Assembly: GCF_030463565.1 (NCBI RefSeq)
Contig: NC_134644.1
Span: 127,841,388-127,905,387 of the forward strand
DNA: 64,000 nucleotides
From: Pelecanus crispus
Taxonomy: Eukaryota; Chordata; Aves; Pelecaniformes; Pelecanidae
Direction of reading: 5' to 3'
Below, one piece after another: positions 2,726 to 58,600 of the stretch (position 1 is its first letter; each line of letters begins with the position of its first letter). The notes under the pieces are model-generated. The model was not told the DNA's origin and searched no databases. It was given only the letters and a program-made list of their open reading frames with translations. Both the position numbers and the translations under genes were made by a program.

Positions 2726-4198
2726 GAAACAACAATGCGCCATAGCTGTCCAGTGCCTTTCTTAACCTGTCCTGGGCCCTGGGGCGTGATCTCTTCTCAG
2801 TTACTAGAGCAGCCACATTCCAAAAACTGCTGCTGTTCTCTTCCACAGACACGCATGCATCTAGCCTTTGTGCATACCCAGGAAGACCACGCTGAGGCAC
2901 ACAACGGTAATCCTTAAACTTACCAGGGCATCAGGTGGGACAGAATTGCCTCTAAGCTTGTTCTCTGCCAGTGCCTAGCAAGTCACTTAGACCTCATTCC
3001 CTGTACCGCAGAGGCTGGTTGGTGGTGTCAAGCTTAGTTCTTGCTATATTTAGAGGGGTTTTTTTTCTCCAGTAGTGAAAAACATTCCTAATGGTTTCTC
3101 CAGTGTGAACTGAAGCTCAAGTGCAGTCTGTGTGTTATTGTCACAATCCAGAAGGAGAGGAAAGGGTCTGAAATGAATTGTATCCCAGATGACCAAGTAT
3201 TCAACAAGCATCTAGTATAGAGAAGCCTGGGGATTTGTCATTAAACACCTCCTGAGGAAGTTTTCAAAGGGCATTTGTTTAAGAGTCTGAGTAAAGCAAA
3301 TTTGCTGGGGGGAGCTGGAATTCTGTAGATATCCTGTCCTGTCTGCATAATGGTCTCTACTTCTGTCTGGTGTAATAGACTACCACCAGTTTTTAAGTTA
3401 TTCTGACTTGGATCATCCTAAATAAAATTCAGTACTTCTTATAATGTTGGTAGTAATGTCAGCAGGAGGGCACACCCAGTTCAGTTATTTGGGAGCAGAG
3501 CTGAAGCAAGCAAAAATAACTGTTTTCCCACACGGTGATCAATAAAAATTTGGAACTCACCACTGCAGAATGTAACAGAGACCAAAAGTATAAATGGGCT
3601 AAAAAAGGATTAAGCAGGTGCTGAGAGATCAGGTGTATGGAAATGAGGTTCAAAAGCACCTTCTGGGCAGGAATTCTTTAAACTACTGATTGCTGGGAGC
3701 TAACAAAATCTAGCCTTTTTTTCTGGTAGTTTTTCTCTAGTGTCCACTGCAAGTCACTTTGGAGACAAGGATCTGGGACTGACAGGCTTGTGATCTAATG
3801 AAGAATGGCTGCTCTTTTGGTCTTCTTTCTGTAAAGCTGCTAGGATAAGTTAGTCTTGTAAAAGTTCATTGATTCATATCAAAATTTCAGGTAGTTTTGA
3901 GTTTGACGTGAGCATCTTTTTTTTCTTTTGTTGTTTACCTAGGTCTGCTACATACCCATGGTAGCCTGCCAAAAGTCATTTCATTGCAAAGGTCTTTAAG
4001 GACATGACGACAGGAGCAGAATTGTTATAGACTATCTACTAAGGCAACAGTGGGTGACATGGGGGTTTTTGTCACAATTTTTTATCCAAGATAGGAAATG
4101 GCAAAAATGACAGCCTTTAAACTTCTGAACAGGTTGAGCAGCTACTGCTGATGTAATGGAAAGTAATTGGCAGTTATAAAGAAGGAATACCTCAATGG

Positions 4199-6767: not shown

Positions 6768-7362
6768 GCAACGAAGCTGGTGAAGGGTCTAGAGAGCAAG
6801 TCTTATGAGGAGCGGCTGAGGGAACTGGGGTTGTTTAGCCTAGAGAAGAGGAGGCTGAGGGGAGACCTTATCGCTCTACAACTGCCTGAAAGGAGGTTGT
6901 AGTGAGGTGGGTGTTGAGCTCTTCTCCCAAGTAGTTAGCGATACGACGAGAGGAATTGGGCTCAAGCTGCATCAGGGGAGGTTTAGATTGGATATTAGGA
7001 AAAATTTTTTCACTGAAAGAATAGTCAAGCATTGGAACAGGCTGCCCAGAGAGGTGGTGGAGTCACCATCCCTGGAGGTGTTCAAATAGTGGGTAGACGT
7101 GGCACTTTGGGATGTGGCTTAGTGGGCATGGTGGTGTTGGGTTGATGGTTGGACTGGTGATCTTAGAGATCCTTTGCAACCTTAATGATTCCTAGTTTTT
7201 ACTTTCATTAAACAATAATGCAGCCACCAAGCCAGGAACCATGAAATTATTCCTCTCCCCTTAATTGGTTTAGTGGTGGACTTGGTAGTGTTAGGTTAAT
7301 GGTTGGACTGGATGATCTTAAAGGTCTTTTCTGACCTAAACGATTCTATGATTCTATAATTC
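6768..7362 (+). mobile_element. CR1 LINE, 5'-truncated, with double 3' end
   Basis: The copy begins at about 6768 in the C-terminal part of the CR1 second open reading frame (peptide [20 protein letters not shown]). It runs through the conserved CR1 3' coding end ([19 protein letters not shown]) to a first CR1 3' end near 7190. About 90 bp of other sequence follows (7190-7270, containing AATAATGCAGCCACC), then a second complete CR1 3' terminus with the ATTCTATGATTCTAT tail. A 2-bp deletion in GCTCTACAACTGCC breaks the frame. The copy at 18936-19854 has the same deletion and the same double end, but a different 5' truncation. Confidence 0.88.
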
Positions 7363-18935: not shown

Positions 18936-19854
18936 AGCACACCCCATGCAACACTACAGGCTTGGGGAAGAGTGGCTGGAAAGCTGCCTGGCCGAAAAGG
19001 ACCTGGGGGTGTTGGTTGACAGCCGTCTGAACATGAGCCAGCAGTGTGCCCAGGTGGCCAAGAAGGCCAACAGCATCCTGGCTTGTATCAGGAATAGTGT
19101 GGCCAGCAGGAGCAGGGAGGTGATTGTCCCCCTGTACTCGGCGCTGGTGAGGCCGCACCTGGAATACTGTGTCCAGTTTTGGGCCCCTCAATACAAGAAG
19201 GACATTGAGGTGCTGGAGCGTGTTCAGAGAAGGGCAACGAATCTGGTGAAGGGTCTGGAGCACAGGCCTTATGAGGAGCGGCTGAGGGAACTGGGGTTGT
19301 TTAGCCTAGAGAAAAGGAGGCTGAGGGGAGACCTTATCGCTCTACAACTGCCTGAAAGGAGGTTGTAGTGAGGTGGGTGTTGGTCTCTTCTCCCAAGTAG
19401 TTAGCAATAGGACAAGAGGAAATGGGCTCAAGCTGCGCCAGGGGAGGTTTAGATTGGATATTAGGAAAAATTTCTTCACAGAAGGAGTGGTCAAGCATTG
19501 GAAGTGGCTGCCCAGAGAGGTGGTGGAGTCACCATCCCTGGAAGTGTTCAAAAAATGGGTAGATGTGGCACTTTGGGACATGGCTTAGTGGGCATGGTGA
19601 TGTTGGGTTGATGATTGGAATGATGATCTTAGAGATCCTTTGCAACCTTAATGATTCCTAGTTTTTACTTTTGTTAAAAAATAATGCAGCCACCGAGCCA
19701 GGAAACATGAAATTACTACACTCCCCTTAATTGATTTAGTGGTAGACTTGGTAGTGTTAGGTTAATGGTTGGAGTTGATGATCTTAAGGGTCTTTTCCAA
19801 CCTAAACAATTCTATGAGTCTATTCTACGATTCTATGATTCCTACGGTTTTTTC
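18936..19854 (+). mobile_element. CR1 LINE, 5'-truncated, double 3' end (sister of 6768 copy)
   Basis: It begins near 18936 in the distal CR1 reading frame. The peptide runs from [20 protein letters not shown] through [19 protein letters not shown] to [10 protein letters not shown]. It then shows the same 2-bp deletion (GCTCTACAACTGCC) that breaks the frame in the 6768 copy, the 3' coding end, a first CR1 3' end near 19650, the same roughly 90-bp linker with AATAATGCAGCCACC, and a second CR1 3' terminus ending in TCTATGATTC at about 19852. The sequences beyond either end do not match those of the 6768 copy, so the two are separate insertions of one lineage. Confidence 0.9.
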
Positions 19855-37990: not shown

Positions 37991-38068
37991 TGTAGCTCTT
38001 CCTCTGCTATTATATTCTTTCAGCAGTGAGTGAGGGAGAGAAACCAGATCCAGATGCACCATGGACTT

Positions 38069-39710
38069 ATAGAATCATAGAATCATTTAGGTTGGAAAAG
38101 ACCTTTAAGATCATTGAGTCCAACCATTTACCTAACACTGCCAAGTCCACCACTAAACCAGGTCCATGAGCACCACATCTACACGTCTTTTAAATACATC
38201 TAGGGGTGGTGACTCAACCACTTCCCTGGGCAGCCTGTTCCAATCCTTGATAACCCTTTCAGTGAAGACATTTTTCCTAATAGCCAATCTAAACCTCCCC
38301 TGGCACAGCTTGAGCCCATTTCCTCTCGTCCTATCGCTAGCTACTTGGGAGAAGAGACCAACACCCACCTCACTACAACCTCCTTTCAGGTAGTCCTAGA
38401 GAGCGATAAGGTCTCCCCTCAGCCTCCTCTTCTCCAGGCTAAACAACCCCAGCTCCCTCAGCCGCTCCTCATAAGGCCTGTGCTCCAGACCCTTCACCAG
38501 ATTCGTTGCCCTTCTCTGGACACACTCCAGCACCTCAATGTCCTTTTTGTATTGAGGGGCCCAAAACTGGACACAGTATTCCAGGTGCAGCCTCACCAGC
38601 GCCAAGTACAGGGGGACAATCACTTCCCTGTTCCTTCTGGCCACACTATTCCTGATACAAGCCAGGATGCTGTTGGCCTTCTTGGCCACCTGGGCACACT
38701 GCTGGCTCATGTTCAGCCGGCTGTTGACCAACACCCCCAGGTCCTTTTCCACCAGGCAGATTTCCAGCCACTTTTCCCCAAGCCTGTAGCGTTGCATGGG
38801 GTTGTCGTGACCCAAGTGCAGGCCCCAGCACTTGGCCTTGTTGAACCTCATACAGTTGGCCTCGGCCCGTCAATCCAGCCTGTGCAGATCCCTCTGTAGA
38901 GCCTTCCTACTCTCAAGCAGATCAACACTCTTGCCCAACTTGTTGTCTGCAAACTTACTGAGAGTGCACTTGATACCCTCGTCCAGACCGTTGATAAAGA
39001 TATTAAACAGAACTGGCCCTGATACTGAGCCCTGGGAAACACCATTTGTGACCGGCCACCAACTGGATTTAACTCCATTCACCACAACTCTTTGGGCCCA
39101 GCCATCCAGCCATTTTTTTACCCAGCGAAGAGTACACCTGTCCAAGCCATGAGCAGGTAGTTTCTCCAAGAGAATGCTGTGGCAAACAGTGTCAAAGGCT
39201 TTACTAAAGTCTAGGTAGACAACATCCACAGCCTTTCCCTCATTCACTAAGCAGGTCACTTTGTCATAGAAGGAGATCAGGTTAGTCAAGCAGGACCTGT
39301 CTTTCATAAACCCATGCTGACTGGGCCCGATCCCCTGGTTGTCCTGTATGTGCCATGTGATGGCACTCAGGATGATCTGCTCCATGACCTTCCCCAGCAC
39401 CGAGGTCAGACTGACAGGCCTGTAGTTCCCTGGATCCTCCTTCCAGCCCTTCTTGTAGATGGGCGTCACATTTGCTAAGCTCCAGTCAACTGGGACCTCT
39501 CTGGTTAGCCAGGGCTGCTGATAAAGGATGGAAAGTGGCTTGGTGAGCACTTCCACCAGCTCCCCCAGTACCCTTGGGTGGATCCCATCTGGCCCCGTAG
39601 ACTTATGAGTGTCCAAATGGTGTAGCAGGTCGCTAACCATTTCCCCTTGGATTATGGGTGCTTCATTCTGCTCCCTGTCCCTGTCTTTCAGCTCAGGGAG
39701 CTGGGTACCC
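38069..39710 (-). mobile_element. CR1 LINE with reverse transcriptase remnant
   Basis: This is the longest mobile element in the window. On the plus strand it opens with the reversed tail ATAGAATCATAGAATCAT and GTTGGAAAAGACCTTTAAGA. It extends 1.6 kb to about 39710, where the coding match stops (5' truncation, as is usual for CR1). No target-site duplication is visible, which is normal for CR1. It contains much of the second reading frame, described separately. Confidence 0.93.
38154..39710 (-). pseudogene. CR1 ORF2 reverse transcriptase, decayed
   Basis: The product copies the element's RNA into DNA at the insertion site. Reading from 39710 downward, the frame shows [10 protein letters not shown], motif [13 protein letters not shown], motif [12 protein letters not shown] (normally GVPQGS) and motif C at 38942-38953. 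Motif C reads FADN where FADD is expected; a codon has also been lost just after it, so one catalytic Asp is missing. An in-frame TGA at 38870-38872 replaces the usual Trp codon after LHRLD. The same frame then continues ([35 protein letters not shown]) to a second stop at 38396-38398. The C-terminal block ([15 protein letters not shown]) ends at 38154. The endonuclease domain is absent through truncation. This copy cannot move on its own. Confidence 0.92.
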
Positions 39711-42700
39711 CTGGTTATATATATTATGGCATAATGATAAATAGCATAATAATGTGAAATACAATAAAATAGCAAGAGTTAGCAACACTGACACTAAAAG
39801 CACTGACGCATTAGCAATAGAGGAGAACAAACAAAATCTAGTTTAGATGGTGGTATACGAGCATTATAATCACATTTGCAACTTCACTTCCATGAATTAA
39901 AAAAGCTGCACTTATTATTGAATCATTACACCTGTTTTAGAAATTTCAGGTCTTACGGAAATAATGAAAATACTATAAACTCCAGTCTGACATGTCAATT
40001 TTAGGTCAGCCTGTACTCATAGCCCAACTAGGTTTTCAGGCCCAATGTTTACTTTCAACTCCTCAAACTTTGGTAATATTTTCAAGTTTCTAAATGAAAT
40101 ATTTCTGGTTCTACCTTGGTGTAGATTATTTCAATTCAAATGTAAAAACAAGGAAAACTGGAAAAATACAGAATTTTTTTTCTGTTTTTAATAACTTTGC
40201 AGCAGATCTGTACAGCTGAAGTTCTTCCATGCCAAAAGCTGAAATTTATCATGGAACAGCTCCAGTTACTGAAAAGGGCTTTGAGTGTTTTGGTAGAACT
40301 GATTGTGTGACTGATTTAAATCAACCTAGAGACCTATCACTGCACAGGAGTGCTCATTCTATACAGGCGGTGGCAAAGTCAGGGCTAATTTAACACCACA
40401 GAGAGGAGTGCATTGAAGCTACACAGAAGAGACCTTTGCAGAAATCTTCAATAGGGTGTCCACAGGTCAGATGCATGCAGGTGTTATCCAGAGCTGCTAC
40501 CTTCTTTGTAACTCATGGCTGATGTGGGACACATGCTCCATGAGTTATGCTTCACGTATCCAGGAGTAGTGATCAGTCCTCAAGTCACTACGCCAGAGGT
40601 GCTCCCCATGGAAAGCAAGCCACAAACCCCTGAAATTGCACACAATATTTCCTCCTTCTTCCTCATCACCTCATGTTGGCATAGGTGCCAACTTCCCTAT
40701 GGCTGGTTTCCAGTTCTCCTGGACATTTGTGGGATGGGTGGAGAACGGCATTGCATGCACCGAAAGAGAGAGACCCAGGGCTCGGAGTTGCAGAGTGTGA
40801 TGTCCTGCAAACTCATGTTGCTGCCTTACGTCCCCTTTGGACCATGGAGGCAGTAAGCCAGGGTGCTGGCAGGGCTGGCAAGTGACTGTCCTTGGGACAT
40901 GGGGCCATCTGAGCTACAGAGGAGAGGACCCCAGTCCCACAATGCATTCCCAGCCCACTTTCGCCTTCAGGGTCTTGCTGCTGTGACAGCGACACTTCTT
41001 AATCATGAGGTGCATTGAGCAGCCTGGTGATGATGGACATATATGTGACCTATACGTCTGTCTTGGGTTGTTGTCTGTTTGAAACACATAGAGAGCTGGA
41101 GGGCAAAGGGAACACGACTGTGTGTGTGCAAAGGACAGATAGCCTGCTCCAGCCCAAATGCAGAGACCAGGACAAATCTTATCTTCCTTACAATATTTAC
41201 TCTGCAACTCATGAAGCTGAAACAAGCTTACTTTTGTGGACAGCTAATTTTTAAAACATAACAGTGTTGGATAGGGAGGAGTATTTGAGAGGTTTTATTT
41301 TATTTTTTTGATATTTACTTCCCCAAAGCACAAGGAGCAGCAAAAAGCAATAGCTATCCTTATTGGGTATCTTTCCATGAAGCCTCATTAGTATCAGAGC
41401 ATCTGCAGGGCAAAGAATTGTGACTGATATTTGTTTAACTAAATGATTACAAGCAGCCACTTTCTGGACAATTTGTAACAAAAATATCTGTGTAGTTCTC
41501 TTCTTTCTTCCTCCTACCACTGCTTCTCCTGGCTTTGCTCCCAGACAACTCTCCTCTCCAATGCAGAAAATGTCCTTTATTATACAACAAAAGCGACACA
41601 TCCCAATAGTTAAAAAATGTTTGCTATTGGTTTTTTGTTGTTGTTGTTCCTGACTAGTTTGAGTCTACGATGTATACTCTGTGTCTACTACAGCAATGCT
41701 TGCTTTCAAACTTCCAGCCTAACAAGCAATACCACGAAATAGTTATATTTCTTTGCCTGCAAATAAATAATTAAAACCAGAATGATGGTTGTAAGAGACA
41801 AAACTAATCTGACTTTCCTTATTATCATCATCAGAAATTGGAGGCTGCATGAGAATACGGGCCAATATATTTATGTGTGCCAAATACTAACAAAATTCTG
41901 GAGTTATTTAGGTGTCTCCTCTGATTTCAGGATGTTAGACAACTAATTATTTTTGAAGTAAGCTTAAGCAAGACTTTGGGAATTAAGTTCTTAGCTCTGG
42001 GAGCTTAGTTCTTGTTGAAACTCTGCAGGGGTGGGGCACGGTGATTCGCCTTGGCTCATTTGAAAAGCTCTGCTCACCTTTTCCTGTCAATAGAAGTTGG
42101 GAACTCCAGCCCCAGTCAGTAAAAGATGTGTTGACATGAAGGTTTTAGTTCACGTCAGAAGTGGTTTTTTACAGGAACTCACCTGATTGTCCCCACTGGG
42201 CTTTGTTTCACACTGTGCAGCAGGTGCGGAAGCCACAAAATGGATTTATTCTGGAAGAAACCAAACCAGATGATGCAATGCATTTACAAGTGCAAATGCA
42301 TTTAACGATCGTCAGGTGCTAAAGGCCTTCAGTCCACAGGACCAGCCCAGAGCTCATCCAGGTAACCCCTCCCCGGCACACACGTAATGTGGCCCTCAGG
42401 TTCACCAGCACTTCCCTCTGCAAAGCCACTGCTTGCTCCTGTAAGCAGAGCCAAACCCGTGCCAAGGATAATGCCCTTTGCTAAGCTGCTGCCAAAATAT
42501 TCAGCTCATCTCAAAATACAGACCATGACAATATAAATATGTTGTTGCTGGAGTTACTGAAGTGCTGTGCTACCCACAGCACTTATAGGAAGTGCAGAAG
42601 AGAAAGGAGGCAACTGGGCAGGGCACGGATATGGGATATATTTTCTTATCCTGACTGATGGGGGAAGCAGCTCTTTCAGCATCAGTGGGGCACTGCAAGG

Positions 42701-49639: not shown

Positions 49640-49967
49640 ATTTCTGAGAGCCTGTGGAAATCAGCGTCTCCTTCTGCGGGGCGGCATCTTGCGCTGTGCC
49701 CCTCAGGCTTTTCCCACAGGGCTGCGGAGCCGAGGCGTGGGTATTCCGGGAGGAAGCGGGCCAGAGGGGCAATGCTGGAGCCGCTTCCCAGCTCCAGCGC
49801 TGTTCGACAGCCCTTGGGCACCCCGGGGACCGGTTGCTGCGGGGGGGGCTGCGGGGGCTGCATGTCCACCGGGGCCTCACCGGCCTGGGGCCACCTGCCA
49901 TCCCTCAGGAGCCACCGGGCCTCGGGGCAGGGAAGGTGGGCTTGGTGCTTAGCTTTATGCCGAAGGT
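49640..49967. promoter_or_regulatory. GC-rich, CpG-containing block (distal part of island)
   Basis: GC-rich sequence with many CpG (for example GCCGAGGCGTGG and CCGGGAGGAAGCGGG) lies immediately left of the polypurine tract. Together with 50670-51200 it forms a CpG-rich zone split by that tract. Both strands are open here because stop codons are rare in such GC-rich DNA, so I do not call a gene. Confidence 0.55.
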
Positions 49968-50577
49968 GAAGGGAGAGAAGGGAGAGAAGGGAGAGAAGAG
50001 AAGGAAAAGGGAAAAGGGAAAAGGGAAAAAAAAGGGGGGGGAAAGGGAAAAGGGAAAGGGAAAGGGAAAGGGAAAAGGAAAGGAAAAGGGAATAGGGAAA
50101 GGGAAAAGGGAAAGAAGGGAAAAGGGAAAAGGGAAAGGGAAAAAGGGAAAAGGGAAAAGGGAAAGGGAGGGCAAAGGGAAAGGAAAGGGAAAGGGAAAGG
50201 GAAAGGGAAAGGGAAAGGAAAGGGAAAGGGAAGGGAAAGGGGAAGGGAAAAGAGGGAAAGGGGAAAGGGGAAAGGGAAAGAAAGGGAAAGGGAAGAAGGA
50301 AAAGGAAAAGGAAAAGGAAAAGGAAAGGAAAAAGAAAAGGAAAAAAGGAAAAGGAAAAAGGAAAAGAAAAGGAAAAAGGAAAAGGAAAAGGAAAAGGAAG
50401 GAAAGGGAAAGGGAAAGGAAAGAAAAGGAAGGGAAAGGGAAAGGGAAAGGGAAAGGGAAAGGGGAAAGGGAAAGGGAAAGGGAAAGGGAAAGGGAAAGGG
50501 AAAGGAAAGAGAAAAGGAAAGAGGAGGGAAAACGGAAAGGGAAAGGGAAGAAAAGAAGAAAAAGAAAAGAGGAAAGA
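49968..50577. repeat. 610-bp polypurine tract, (GGGAAA)n / (GGAAA)n
   Basis: The + strand is almost entirely purine. I count only three pyrimidines (T at 50093, C at 50172 and C at 50533). Units drift between GGGAAA, GGGAAAA, GGAAAA and GGGGAAA. Such homopurine mirror-type DNA can form triplex (H-DNA). It lies directly upstream of the CpG island with the probable promoter. Long open frames through it (Lys/Arg/Gly/Glu on one strand, Phe/Pro/Ser/Leu on the other) are artefacts of the repeat. Confidence 0.95.
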
Positions 50578-50669
50578 TAAAAAAGAGAAAGGAAAGAATA
50601 ATAATATAAAAATAAAAAGGAAAATATGGAAATAAAACTGAAATGAAAATAACTTAATAATAATAACAA

Positions 50670-54260: not shown

Positions 54261-55466
54261 AAGACACTGTCTTGCAGGAGTACCTGCAAATACAAATCTT
54301 GTTTGGCAATGTTTTGGTCTTATTTATTTGGTGGCCAAATAAATACATTTCCAAATACCTGCAAGTATTGTCTGCTTTGCTTTGTAAAATTAGAAATAGC
54401 TCATTGGCAGATGGCATGAGCACATCGTTAGTATTAATAGACCTATACACACAAAAGGAGAACCGGTGACTTCTGTTTGTAATTAAGCTAATCACAGAGG
54501 CAGGAGAGAGCTCCTATCTTATCAGGATTACTGCTTAACCTCAACTAGACTGCACCAACAGAGCAAATACTTGCCTTGGCATTTGATCCTCATACAGCAT
54601 CGCATGCTTTGGGGTTTCCCTGGAGTGGTTAGTGGCCAGGGCAGGACATCCCACTCATGCAGCTCTCTTCCACTTCAACAGGTTAGTTTGCAGTAAAGCT
54701 GCTGTAAATGTAAAATGCTGTAAAGCTAAATAATTTAGTTATTACCAAACAATCAGATCTTTAAAAACCCTGATGTAAATCAAGTGTGCAAAGTATGCAG
54801 ACTAAGCCTTACAACTGTTCATTTATTTTTTCCCCCAAACTTCTACATCTTTTTCCTGCAGCTCAGGTTCTCAGCCATTAGTAATTGCAATAACTGCTCA
54901 CAGTCAGTTCTATTCTGCTTCTTTCAACTCCATTAACCCTTTAACTCCCTAGTGAGCTTTGGTGTCAATCATAGTCATGAGAAATATTTACAAAAAAAGC
55001 AGGAAATTTAGAGATACAAGAGACTAGACATTGGCAATTGGTTGTGAAGGTCTCTATGCCTTGTTAGCAAGCCACAGGAAATTTGCCAGGAATATACATT
55101 TCTGTAGGGGAAGCAGAACAGTCTGGGGAATGTCAGAAGAAAACTGCATTTGCTGAAGTTTTGAACAGCAGCTCTAGGTTGGCTGTCTCTTGGAAGACTT
55201 TTGAAGTGCAGATTAAATAATTCCAGATGATGACAAAAAACTCTGTTAAGAAAACAAAAGGTCTGGGCTTTCAGCCACTTTGGGGTGGTTGGTTTTCTGC
55301 CTGGAAATGGCCCTGCACCCATTCACTGCTGCCGCTCCGGCTGCTCCTCTGGAGCGGCCCTGTTCTTTCTCATACAGTGCCTCTGAAAAGGGACTTATTT
55401 TTGTCAGTTTGCTTTTTTCCTCCCTCTGTCTTTACTCAGGGGGCTGGATAGCCGCCTCTGTTTTAT
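54261..55466. other. Probable intron sequence, nothing recognised
   Basis: AT-rich unique sequence to the right of the gap. I see no exon or repeat up to the composite retroposon at 55467. Confidence 0.5.
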
Positions 55467-55618
55467 AGAACGGTTTGGATTGGAAGGGACCCTAAAAGGC
55501 CATCTCCTGCCAAGCCCCCTGCCATGGGCCAAGAAAGGGATCCCCATCCCTGGGTGGGCTCAAACCACCAACTTTTCAGTTAACAGCTGAACGTGCTAAC
55601 CAATTGCACCACAGAGAC
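55467..55618 (-). mobile_element. tRNA-Asn/CR1 composite SINE-like retroposon
   Basis: On the minus strand this 152-bp unit has a 74-base tRNA-Asn-like head (55618 to 55545). A CR1 3' tail follows immediately (GGATCCCTTTCTTGGCCC, CATGGCAGGGGG, GGGTCCCTTCCAATCCAAAC), ending at GTTCTATA. The head keeps an A box (TGGTGCAATTGG) and a decayed B box (GGTTTGAGCCC). A tRNA head with a LINE 3' tail is the defining layout of a SINE that borrows LINE machinery. Birds have a precedent in a tRNA-Ile-headed CR1-tailed SINE of passerines; a tRNA-Asn head is not one I can place. Confidence 0.75.
55545..55618 (-). tRNA. tRNA-Asn(GTT)-derived pseudogene (SINE head)
   Basis: It is full length at 74 bases, starting GTCTCTGTGG and ending CACCCAGGGATG, with anticodon GTT in CTGTTAACT. 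Against the vertebrate tRNA-Asn gene as I know it there are eight differences. Seven are C-to-T or G-to-A changes at former CpG sites, including one that damages the B box and others in the arms. This is what methylation-driven decay of an inactive copy looks like. The 3' end runs into CR1 sequence, so it is not a functional tRNA gene. Confidence 0.85.
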
Positions 55619-58600
55619 CCCCTTTTCCCTCTCCTGTGTGCCTTGCTGACATGGGTTCCTGCTTGTGACTGGCCATGATGCTTTAACACCGACTCTTTAA
55701 ACCCTTCTTCTACCAGGCGGAGCGTTGGTTGCCGTTTGACAACTATTTCCTGTTTTCCAGTCTGAGCGGGGGTTCGGTAGGAAAGGCACGGCACCAGGAA
55801 TGGGGTACAGCAGAGGTTTTCAGGTTAGCCATACCCCAGCCATGCAGCAGAGCCAGAAAATGCCATGCCTTACCAAGAGGAGTAAGAAGCAGTTATTGTG
55901 TTCAGGGGTTGAACACGTTGTTTTATCAAACCAAAAGCTTTTGATCCAGGTGGCTGTGAAGAGGGAGAGGACAGTGGAACAAAATGGGACTAAAACTCAG
56001 TCTAAGTTTTCCCCTGGACCTGAAGTATCAGCAGTCAGGCTAATTCTGTACTTTAAACATCGATGCCTTGCTAAGTCTGAGCGGATTTTGAGAAGCCCTT
56101 GCAGCCATCCTTGCACAGGAAAGCAAATGCAGTTTTAAGGCTTGCCTTCGCATGACAGCAGCTCGCAAAAGCAAGATGACATCGATAGAGAGGGGTATGA
56201 CTGAAGTGCCTTCTCAGTGAGGACTAACCTACTTGCCCCCTGCTTGCAGCTGTGTACTCACCTCTCCTAGTTTTGCCTGCTAAAATATGATCTGGTCAAC
56301 TAAGCTTCAGCAATTTCCTGTGGTTATGATGGCAAAAAGTGTGATTGCTCTTACACCTGCCTAATGCTGTTCTTGCCAATAGGACAGTAATAAAGTAGTT
56401 CTGGCAGGCAGTGCAGGTGTGCAAGAGGTGTTGGTGATATTCAGAAAATAAGATTTGGTTTTTGGTTTTTTTTTTTTTTCCCATGTGCAGGGTTTATTAG
56501 GAGTGAATCCCAGGCACCGAGCATTTTCTCTCTTGATTTGATTTGCTAGCAGCTACAGACAAGACCATACTCAGTTTCACCATTTCATGTTTTAGTATTG
56601 GGGTATAGTTATTACCAGCTAAACCAGCAGATCCTTTAAAAGTTAAAGCATCATCTCTGGTCTCTTCCCAGTCCTGTATTTCTAAACAGAGCATTGTTTC
56701 AAGCCCTAGCCTAGGAACTGCATCAGTACAGTTGGCTGCACAGAGCACAACACACTCATATTCTTATCCTGATTTCTGGTCTTGCCCGTCTCCTGTGATA
56801 TTCCTCCTCCTTTCATCCACACCTGTGGATTCCCCCACCATGCCTGGGGAACATCAATTCAAAAGAAGTGAGAATTCAATCAAGGATGTCAGAGCTGACC
56901 TATTTTGTCAGTTGTCACTGAAGTGGATAGAGAGGAAACCTGCCTATGGTGTGCACTTCTGCTAGAGGACCTTGCGGTGGTAGGAGAGAAAATGGGCTCG
57001 TCTCTATTTCTCCCAACTCTGCATTTAAATAGAACCGCTTTCTTTACTCTTCCGTGCTATATTTAATTTGTGAACTTGCAAAAGTGTTATCTTTTTCCCA
57101 GAATCATCGGACTTTCTGTAAAGGGTGGAATGGTTTTATTGCCCTTGGAGAACGCTGCAGAATTTTTGCATTCACGTATGGTAGAGCATGAGATTACACA
57201 CTTTCAGCCACAGAAAGGGACATGGGTATCTGTCCTTTAAATATGGATGTTAAAGTAAAAGATGCTTTATCTTGCCTGCAGAAGTACAGAAGCAATGAAA
57301 AGTGAATGCTGTAGTTTCTTAAAGTTTCTTTTTGCAATTAAGGCGGCTTTTTTCCTCCATCTGACACTCTGAGGGGTGGCAGAAGAGGAGTACAGGCAGT
57401 ATTAAGCTTATATTCTAATTTCATAGTAAAAGTTCCACATGGATACATATATTTTAAAGATCAGTCAGCATTTTCAGACAGAAATGGCCTGGTACTGTGC
57501 AAAGGGATGGATGTTCTTCTTGTAATACTTTCTAAAGTTAAGACTTGGCCCAAATCACTAATTCTCAAGAAAATACCTCAACTCTTCATATCAAGATGGA
57601 ATAATCACTTCAGCTTAAATACAGGAAACATTGGGCATAATAGCCATTACTTGCACAGATCTTGTTAACAAGAACATAATTTCCTAATCACTCCCTTGAA
57701 AGCAAACCCAGATGATAGAAGCATAGTTGAGCTCCTGCCAAACACCTCAAGAACTCCAATTTCACACCCAAGTTCCTGCAGGAGTGCCAGGATAACCTCA
57801 ACTATTCAGTGAAAAAAAAAAAAAAAAAACCTTAAGCACTATGCTTATAGTTCCTTATACTTGTATTCTTAAAGACAAAAACTATCAGTTGGGATAGTAC
57901 AAAAACTTGTGTAAGAAACAAGAGCGCAGACATCTGGATGTGTTTGTATTACACACCAAGGCAATATATAACTCTGCAGGCCATATTGCCTTAGTGGCAA
58001 CATCCTAGTCCCTCTCCTCATTCTCTTGAATTAGGCCTTGAGAAAAAAAAAGAAAGTTGACCTTTTTTTTTTTTTTTTTTAAAGATGTAGAGTAGTTAGA
58101 GAACAAAAGAACAGATTCAAGGTTTTATTGGTGGCAGTTCCTCCACAGTGATGGCATGTGTGTGATTTAATGAGGCATGCAAAGGGCTTTGATCTTGCAT
58201 CATCTTCATGATGTGATGAAAACAGGAGCCTCCACTGGTGGTGGAGGCTCATCAAGAGGTGGTGCAAGTGGCAAGCACTGTGAGTCCATAGATGTGTTGG
58301 TTTTCAGTATAATGCACCTCTAATATAAATAAATGCTAAAAGCTGTTAGACTTCCCTCAGGTTGTTACAGCAGTGCTTTTAAAAAGCAAACAACCCAGCA
58401 AGCTCACCCACTAAATGTTTGTAAACCATGTCACAGGAACTGCAAATATTAGAAATAACTTTAATTTTATTTACCTACATTTTTCCCATTAGCTTGTGAA
58501 GCTATCAAGTAGCTAGATAACTAGTTGATAGATATAAGATAACTTTTTTTTTAAAAACAGAGCATATGACAAGTAGACAAAATTATCATCTTGCTCCAGA

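Follow-up and report, generated by a model that had tools for sequence, protein, structure and literature searches.

A tRNA-Asn/CR1 chimera in the genome of Pelecanus crispus, probably a very small retroposon family with an origin of its own

The window, i.e., the whole stretch of 64,000 nucleotides analyzed here (C2:127841388-127905387), carries on its minus strand a tRNA-Asn(GTT) sequence followed by the 3′ end of a CR1 LINE. The parts of this element are listed in Table 1. It was compared with the whole host genome (1,314,409,820 bases, 310 contigs).

Table 1. Parts of the tRNA-Asn/CR1 element in the window.
Feature	Position in window	Strand	Remarks
Pre-tRNA leader	55619..55622	-	GGGG in the window copy
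tRNA-Asn(GTT) head	55545..55618	-	ARAGORN and Rfam
Pre-tRNA 3′ trailer, GGGATCCCTTT	55534..55544	-	Related to the CGCTCCCCTTT(T) terminator stretch of the tRNA-Asn gene at C2:21.14 Mb
CR1 3′ end, hairpin base through a single decayed terminal unit	55465..55533	-	Nine mismatches plus indels relative to the CR1 majority
Stretch 3′ of the CR1 end, common to the C43 copies	55385..55464	-	BLAST match to 55418, local alignment to 55385

The head is recognized as one full tRNA with anticodon GTT by both ARAGORN, which folds it into a good cloverleaf, and Rfam (RF00005, 59.9 bits, E 1.9e-10), and no CCA follows it. This bears out the original prediction of a full-length tRNA-Asn(GTT) head without CCA. 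A chance tRNA-like sequence is ruled out by the two programs and by a shuffle control, as ARAGORN returned no tRNA in 20 shuffles of the window in blocks of two bases. Compared to the tRNA-Asn gene at C2:21.14 Mb, the head differs at 8 of 74 positions, seven of which represent CpG decay. The A and B boxes were read by eye, the B box of the window copy being without its CpG; a cloverleaf head with these boxes is of the pol III type, as in a CR1-mobilised tRNA SINE. The tail is matched by many genomic CR1 copies and derives from a CR1 3′ end, as is also the case in such a SINE; the hairpin is predicted for the C15 copy, and the terminal repeat is reduced in the window to one decayed unit, TTCTATA. 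The stretch beyond it ends near TTTT. While the proposed SINE-type architecture is thereby supported, the view that the tRNA runs straight into about 75 bp of CR1 needs correction. The full tRNA and the CR1 3′ end are both present, but the first ~11 of the 78 bases after the tRNA (55544-55534) correspond to the trailer of the tRNA-Asn gene, CR1 starting only at ~55533, and the head corresponds to a pre-tRNA, leader and trailer included.

Elsewhere in the window, CR1 copies at 6768-7362, 18941-19823, and 38064-39778 are 84-95% alike over their common stretches, which suggests fairly recent CR1 activity. Positions 49956-50623 hold a long purine-rich low-complexity tract on the plus strand (G and A runs) with a strong strand skew around it.

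When the 152-base unit was used as a query (best 40 of 198 candidates scored), full-length matches came from the window itself, from C15, and from eight copies in C43. The locus at C2:28.04 Mb appeared as a head-only match, in which a decayed CR1 tail was found on inspection; its trailer is mostly lost and its tRNA-CR1 junction partly deleted. The 157-nt unit of C15 (best 40 of 1652 candidates scored) brought the same four places to the top, C2:28.04 Mb matching its positions 1-145. These were followed by the tRNA gene at C2:21.14 Mb, matching 1-89. With the C2:28.04 Mb copy as a query (18/18 candidates scored), no fifth chimera place was found. Among the matches scored, the chimera is thus present at no fewer than four unrelated places with 11 copies in total, the C43 array included, and for strongly decayed copies the searches give a lower bound. 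Searches with the head only gave 15 places (15/15 candidates scored) and 14 places (14/14 scored). With the C43 array taken as a single locus, the 15 places reduce to eight loci, of which four have CR1 tails; those without are C2:21.14 Mb, C2:18.83 Mb, C46:28.38 Mb, and C43:25 kb, the last one being clustered with genes for tRNA-Ala, -Ser, and -Gly. The original prediction had left room for a one-off template-switch chimera, a reading that is ruled out by the copies at C15, C43, and C2:28.04 Mb. It took many copies in a genome search with the 152-bp unit as support for a SINE family; the junction does recur at four loci, but the copy number of an ordinary SINE family (hundreds or more) was not reached in the searches made. 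The best interpretation is a minimal SINE-like family of low copy number, which is more than a one-off event and less than an expanded SINE.

To determine the boundaries of the element, the four chimeras were compared by BLAST in all pairs, together with the gene at C2:21.14 Mb and the locus in C46, each sequence including ~1.5 kb on either side. Among the chimeras, homology starts 3-6 bases 5′ of the tRNA in 6/6 pairs, and the ~1.5 kb of 5′ flank gave no match in any of these six pairs. At the other side, homology ends inside the CR1 end or at most ~20 bases from it in five of the six pairs; the alignment of the window with C2:28.04 Mb covers just -5 to +74. Against the tRNA gene at C2:21.14 Mb, the window, C43, and C15 align over -3 to +85; C2:28.04 Mb aligns over -3 to +79. 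The search for target-site duplications gave no convincing pair, the longest words common to the insertion flanks being 6-7 nt. Only between the window and C43 does homology continue, to +201/+207, as their copies have a further ~50-80 bases downstream of the unit in common. The local alignment of this stretch scores 68, compared to a maximum of 56 in 300 shuffles. With 76 bases of the C43 stretch as a query, just nine places were found, all in C43 (9/9 candidates scored), and the window itself was missed. If the CR1 reverse transcriptase invariably began at the terminal repeat, such a stretch would be unexpected; it may stem from a longer pol III read-through RNA.

In C43, the 20 kb compared (C43:1136000-1155999) consist of partly inverted repeats that are 99.8-100% identical and hold three full chimera copies and a truncated one; spread of the array copies by DNA amplification, not by retroposition, is what this identity indicates. 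The array also contains a retroviral pol-like frame and an olfactory-receptor frame that is intact (Pfam 7tm_4, E 7.6e-40) and is matched a second time over its full length at 98.75%. One of the tRNA-Asn/CR1 copies ends ~235 bp upstream of the start codon of the olfactory receptor, on the same strand. The C15 copy has different surroundings: a degraded 18S rRNA fragment lies 5′ of it in the same sense (L016, ~3640-3881) and ends ~13-19 nt before the pre-tRNA leader. Used as a query, this fragment was found at four or more places including itself, and no further 18S match occurs after the CR1 tail of C15. The whole looks like a three-part 18S-tRNA-CR1 chimera.

The join between tRNA and CR1 is alike in most copies. 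The leader GGG(A/G) is present in 4/4 chimeras, being GGGA in C43, C15, C2:28.04 Mb, and also the gene at C2:21.14 Mb, and GGGG in the window; an 11-base trailer comparable to the CGCTCCCCTTT(T) of the gene is present in 3/4. CR1 sequence starts at TCCCTGCCCATGGCAGGGG, where a predicted hairpin has its base. This hairpin forms when the C15 copy is folded but is absent from the minimum-energy fold of C43, and folding z-scores of the whole units are unremarkable (-0.61 and -0.49). The join is placed at the oligo-T of the trailer, because the homology with the gene runs to +85, and 28 of the best 40 matches scored with the C15 unit are CR1-only and start at unit positions 86-89. As leader and trailer are common to the chimeras, a mature tRNA is disfavored as the template. 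In the tRNA-Ile/CR1 family of this genome, which resembles TguSINE1, the CR1 part starts at the same hairpin-base position. Furthermore, two of 20 fetched CR1 copies (L064 and L076) are 5′-truncated at or near this base, where both tRNA heads are joined to CR1; the 20 were picked for likeness to the C15 tail, so that 2/20 is no rate. The hairpin base is possibly a stop site for the reverse transcriptase, and a template switch by the CR1 enzyme onto pre-tRNA would be the best explanation for the join.

The position at which the tRNA-Ile/CR1 tail starts, together with the abundance of this family (1318 first-look candidates, best 40 scored), would suit an origin by head replacement of an existing tRNA-Ile/CR1 SINE, as proposed for PittSINE. 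The tails themselves largely refute this. Seven columns separate six tRNA-Ile SINE tails from the 20 CR1 tails, the former being taken from fetched TguSINE1-like copies, which is not the published consensus. The four tRNA-Asn tails have the tRNA-Ile state in only 1/28 diagnostic cells, so they most likely derive from CR1 directly. Head replacement is therefore unsupported and very improbable. The birth of the tRNA-Asn/CR1 chimera was probably separate from that of the tRNA-Ile/CR1 SINE, as had been predicted. Whether there was one birth or several depends on other positions. T36C occurs in 4/4 tRNA-Asn tails, 4/20 CR1 copies, and 2/6 tRNA-Ile SINE tails; A63G is shared by the window, C43, and C2:28.04 Mb (3/4 tails), and T38C by C15 and C2:28.04 Mb, both being found in 0/20 CR1 copies. 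On one simple tree A63G and T38C conflict, so homoplasy is present, and with just four loci the case for re-mobilisation rests on few common bases.

The copies could alternatively be independent chimeras, with the CR1 reverse transcriptase switching repeatedly from the hairpin base to pre-tRNA-Asn and each copy being dead, without any family. The hairpin base is a recurrent breakpoint and may be a hotspot, being shared with the tRNA-Ile SINE and the truncated CR1 copies, so that it is a less telling sign of shared ancestry, and the 18S fragment in front of the C15 unit looks like another template switch. The loss of most of the trailer at C2:28.04 Mb also counts against a family. Nevertheless, the copies have one tRNA type, one leader, and, in three of four, one trailer endpoint, besides tail substitutions in common and the 3′ stretch of the window and C43, which leaves independent chimeras unlikely. 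That 3′ stretch would also fit a CR1 fragment that inserted beside a tRNA-Asn gene, after which gene and LINE spread together by DNA duplication, as the C43 copies clearly did. Since homology begins at the pre-tRNA leader in every chimera pair and the 5′ flanks lack a match, this is quite improbable. On balance, a low-copy retroposon family of independent origin is considered likely: a real but very small CR1-tailed family would probably be what the four loci represent.

For this retroposon family, the following course of events would fit the join. The CR1 reverse transcriptase, copying the 3′ end of CR1 LINE RNA, would have halted at the hairpin base and continued on an unprocessed pre-tRNA-Asn from its oligo-U end, so that leader, tRNA, trailer, and CR1 tail became joined in this order. 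After insertion, the chimera would have kept both the internal pol III promoter, i.e., the A and B boxes of the tRNA, and the CR1 3′ end that is recognized by the CR1 reverse transcriptase. Recopying may then have carried it to a few unrelated places, including the window, where its CpGs have since decayed; the pattern is observed and the process presumed. Finally, at least the C2:28.04 Mb copy, and perhaps those of the C43 array, may have been retained as tRNA-Asn genes as their tails decayed.

The last step is suggested by comparing heads and tails, with differences counted without indels. In the window (head 8/74, tail 9/69, p = 0.8) and in C15 (9/74 and 7/69), both parts have decayed alike. 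At C2:28.04 Mb, the head differs at 1/74 positions and the tail at 19/69 (Fisher p = 3e-6), and in C43 the values are 3/74 and 9/69 (p = 0.07). The contrast at C2:28.04 Mb suggests what is expected if this copy became a working tRNA gene, although an older CR1 source for its tail would mimic erosion. In Rfam bits, the two genes score 68.4 and 68.4, C2:28.04 Mb 66.1, C43 66.0 (three array copies scanned), C46 61.7, the window 59.9, and C15 50.6. Some tRNA-Asn/CR1 copies may still be working tRNA genes. In the D and anticodon stems of the window, C15, and C46, double CpG decay is fully compensatory in 5/6 cases (counted by eye, with half as the chance expectation; binomial p = 0.11), which was not accepted as proof of selection on the window head. 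In all, 12 little-changed tRNA-Asn heads were found: the two genes, C2:18.83 Mb (called by ARAGORN only), C2:28.04 Mb, and the eight array copies, seven of which have identical heads while the eighth has a changed last base. Nine of the 12, i.e., the array copies and C2:28.04 Mb, are CR1-tailed. That CR1-driven retroposition supplied most of the bird's intact tRNA-Asn genes is conceivable on these counts, albeit doubtful. If true, this would mean turnover of an essential tRNA family by way of a nascent SINE, with its origin on a pre-tRNA at the CR1 hairpin base still readable.

SINE families are usually seen after their expansion. A chimera at four loci with a legible join suggests how CR1 SINEs start, namely with a pre-tRNA ending in oligo-U that is joined at the CR1 hairpin base, a position also used by the tRNA-Ile SINE. 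It may also serve as a test case for tRNA genes that a LINE disperses and that are retained as the LINE part is lost to decay. The main value of the element lies in this readable pre-tRNA/hairpin join and in the possibility that copies were recruited as tRNA genes.

In the literature searched, mostly titles and listings, no tRNA-Asn/CR1 SINE was found named. A CR1-mobilised SINE is named in tuatara in the part of PMC7116210 consulted, where tRNA-Asn refers to the mitochondrial one. The best comparison is TguSINE1, the tRNA-Ile/CR1 SINE of passerines, which reaches ~2000 copies in each oscine genome according to the excerpts seen (Suh et al., 2017; PMC5729268). According to these excerpts, it likewise combines a tRNA head with a CR1 3′ end that has the hairpin and a terminal microsatellite. 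It differs by its tRNA-Ile head and by its copy number, compared to the four or more tRNA-Asn/CR1 loci found here. The TguSINE1-like family of the pelican has a CR1 tail in 6/6 fetched copies and differs as well: its tails have other diagnostic bases, and 38 of the best 40 tRNA-Ile matches scored stop at position 63 of 74, whereas the tRNA-Asn chimera has a full tRNA with leader and trailer. Should the distribution given by Suh et al. (2017) hold, a family of this kind would indicate a passerine other than a New Zealand wren; as the largest contig fetched measures 228 Mb and passerines usually have a split chromosome 1, the alternatives are a tRNA-Ile SINE outside passerines or an unusual passerine karyotype. 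PittSINE, the tRNA-Asp/CR1 SINE of pittas, is also attributed to a template switch onto a tRNA, and in the excerpts seen it is inferred to have taken over the tail of TguSINE1 (Suh et al., 2017; PMC5729268), while the tail of the tRNA-Asn element most likely came straight from CR1. Identity with PittSINE was rejected, as the head is tRNA-Asn and no expanded, PittSINE-like tRNA-Asp family was seen in the genome search (4 candidates, 4/4 scored). Other lineage-specific births of avian SINEs are known, some of them on small-RNA or rRNA heads. ManaSINE1, GymnSINE, MeloSINE, and others were mobilised by AviRTE; the first three have tRNA-Glu, 5S, and 28S heads, respectively, and their tails come from AviRTE instead of CR1 (PMC4844689, as far as excerpted). 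Lastly, a highlight (PMC8044554) on the work of Ottenburghs et al. (2021) describes transposon-borne tRNA genes in birds, where selection holds the tRNA while the transposon erodes. The tRNA-Asn/CR1 copies may have taken this route, known from tRNA-like sequences on transposable elements.
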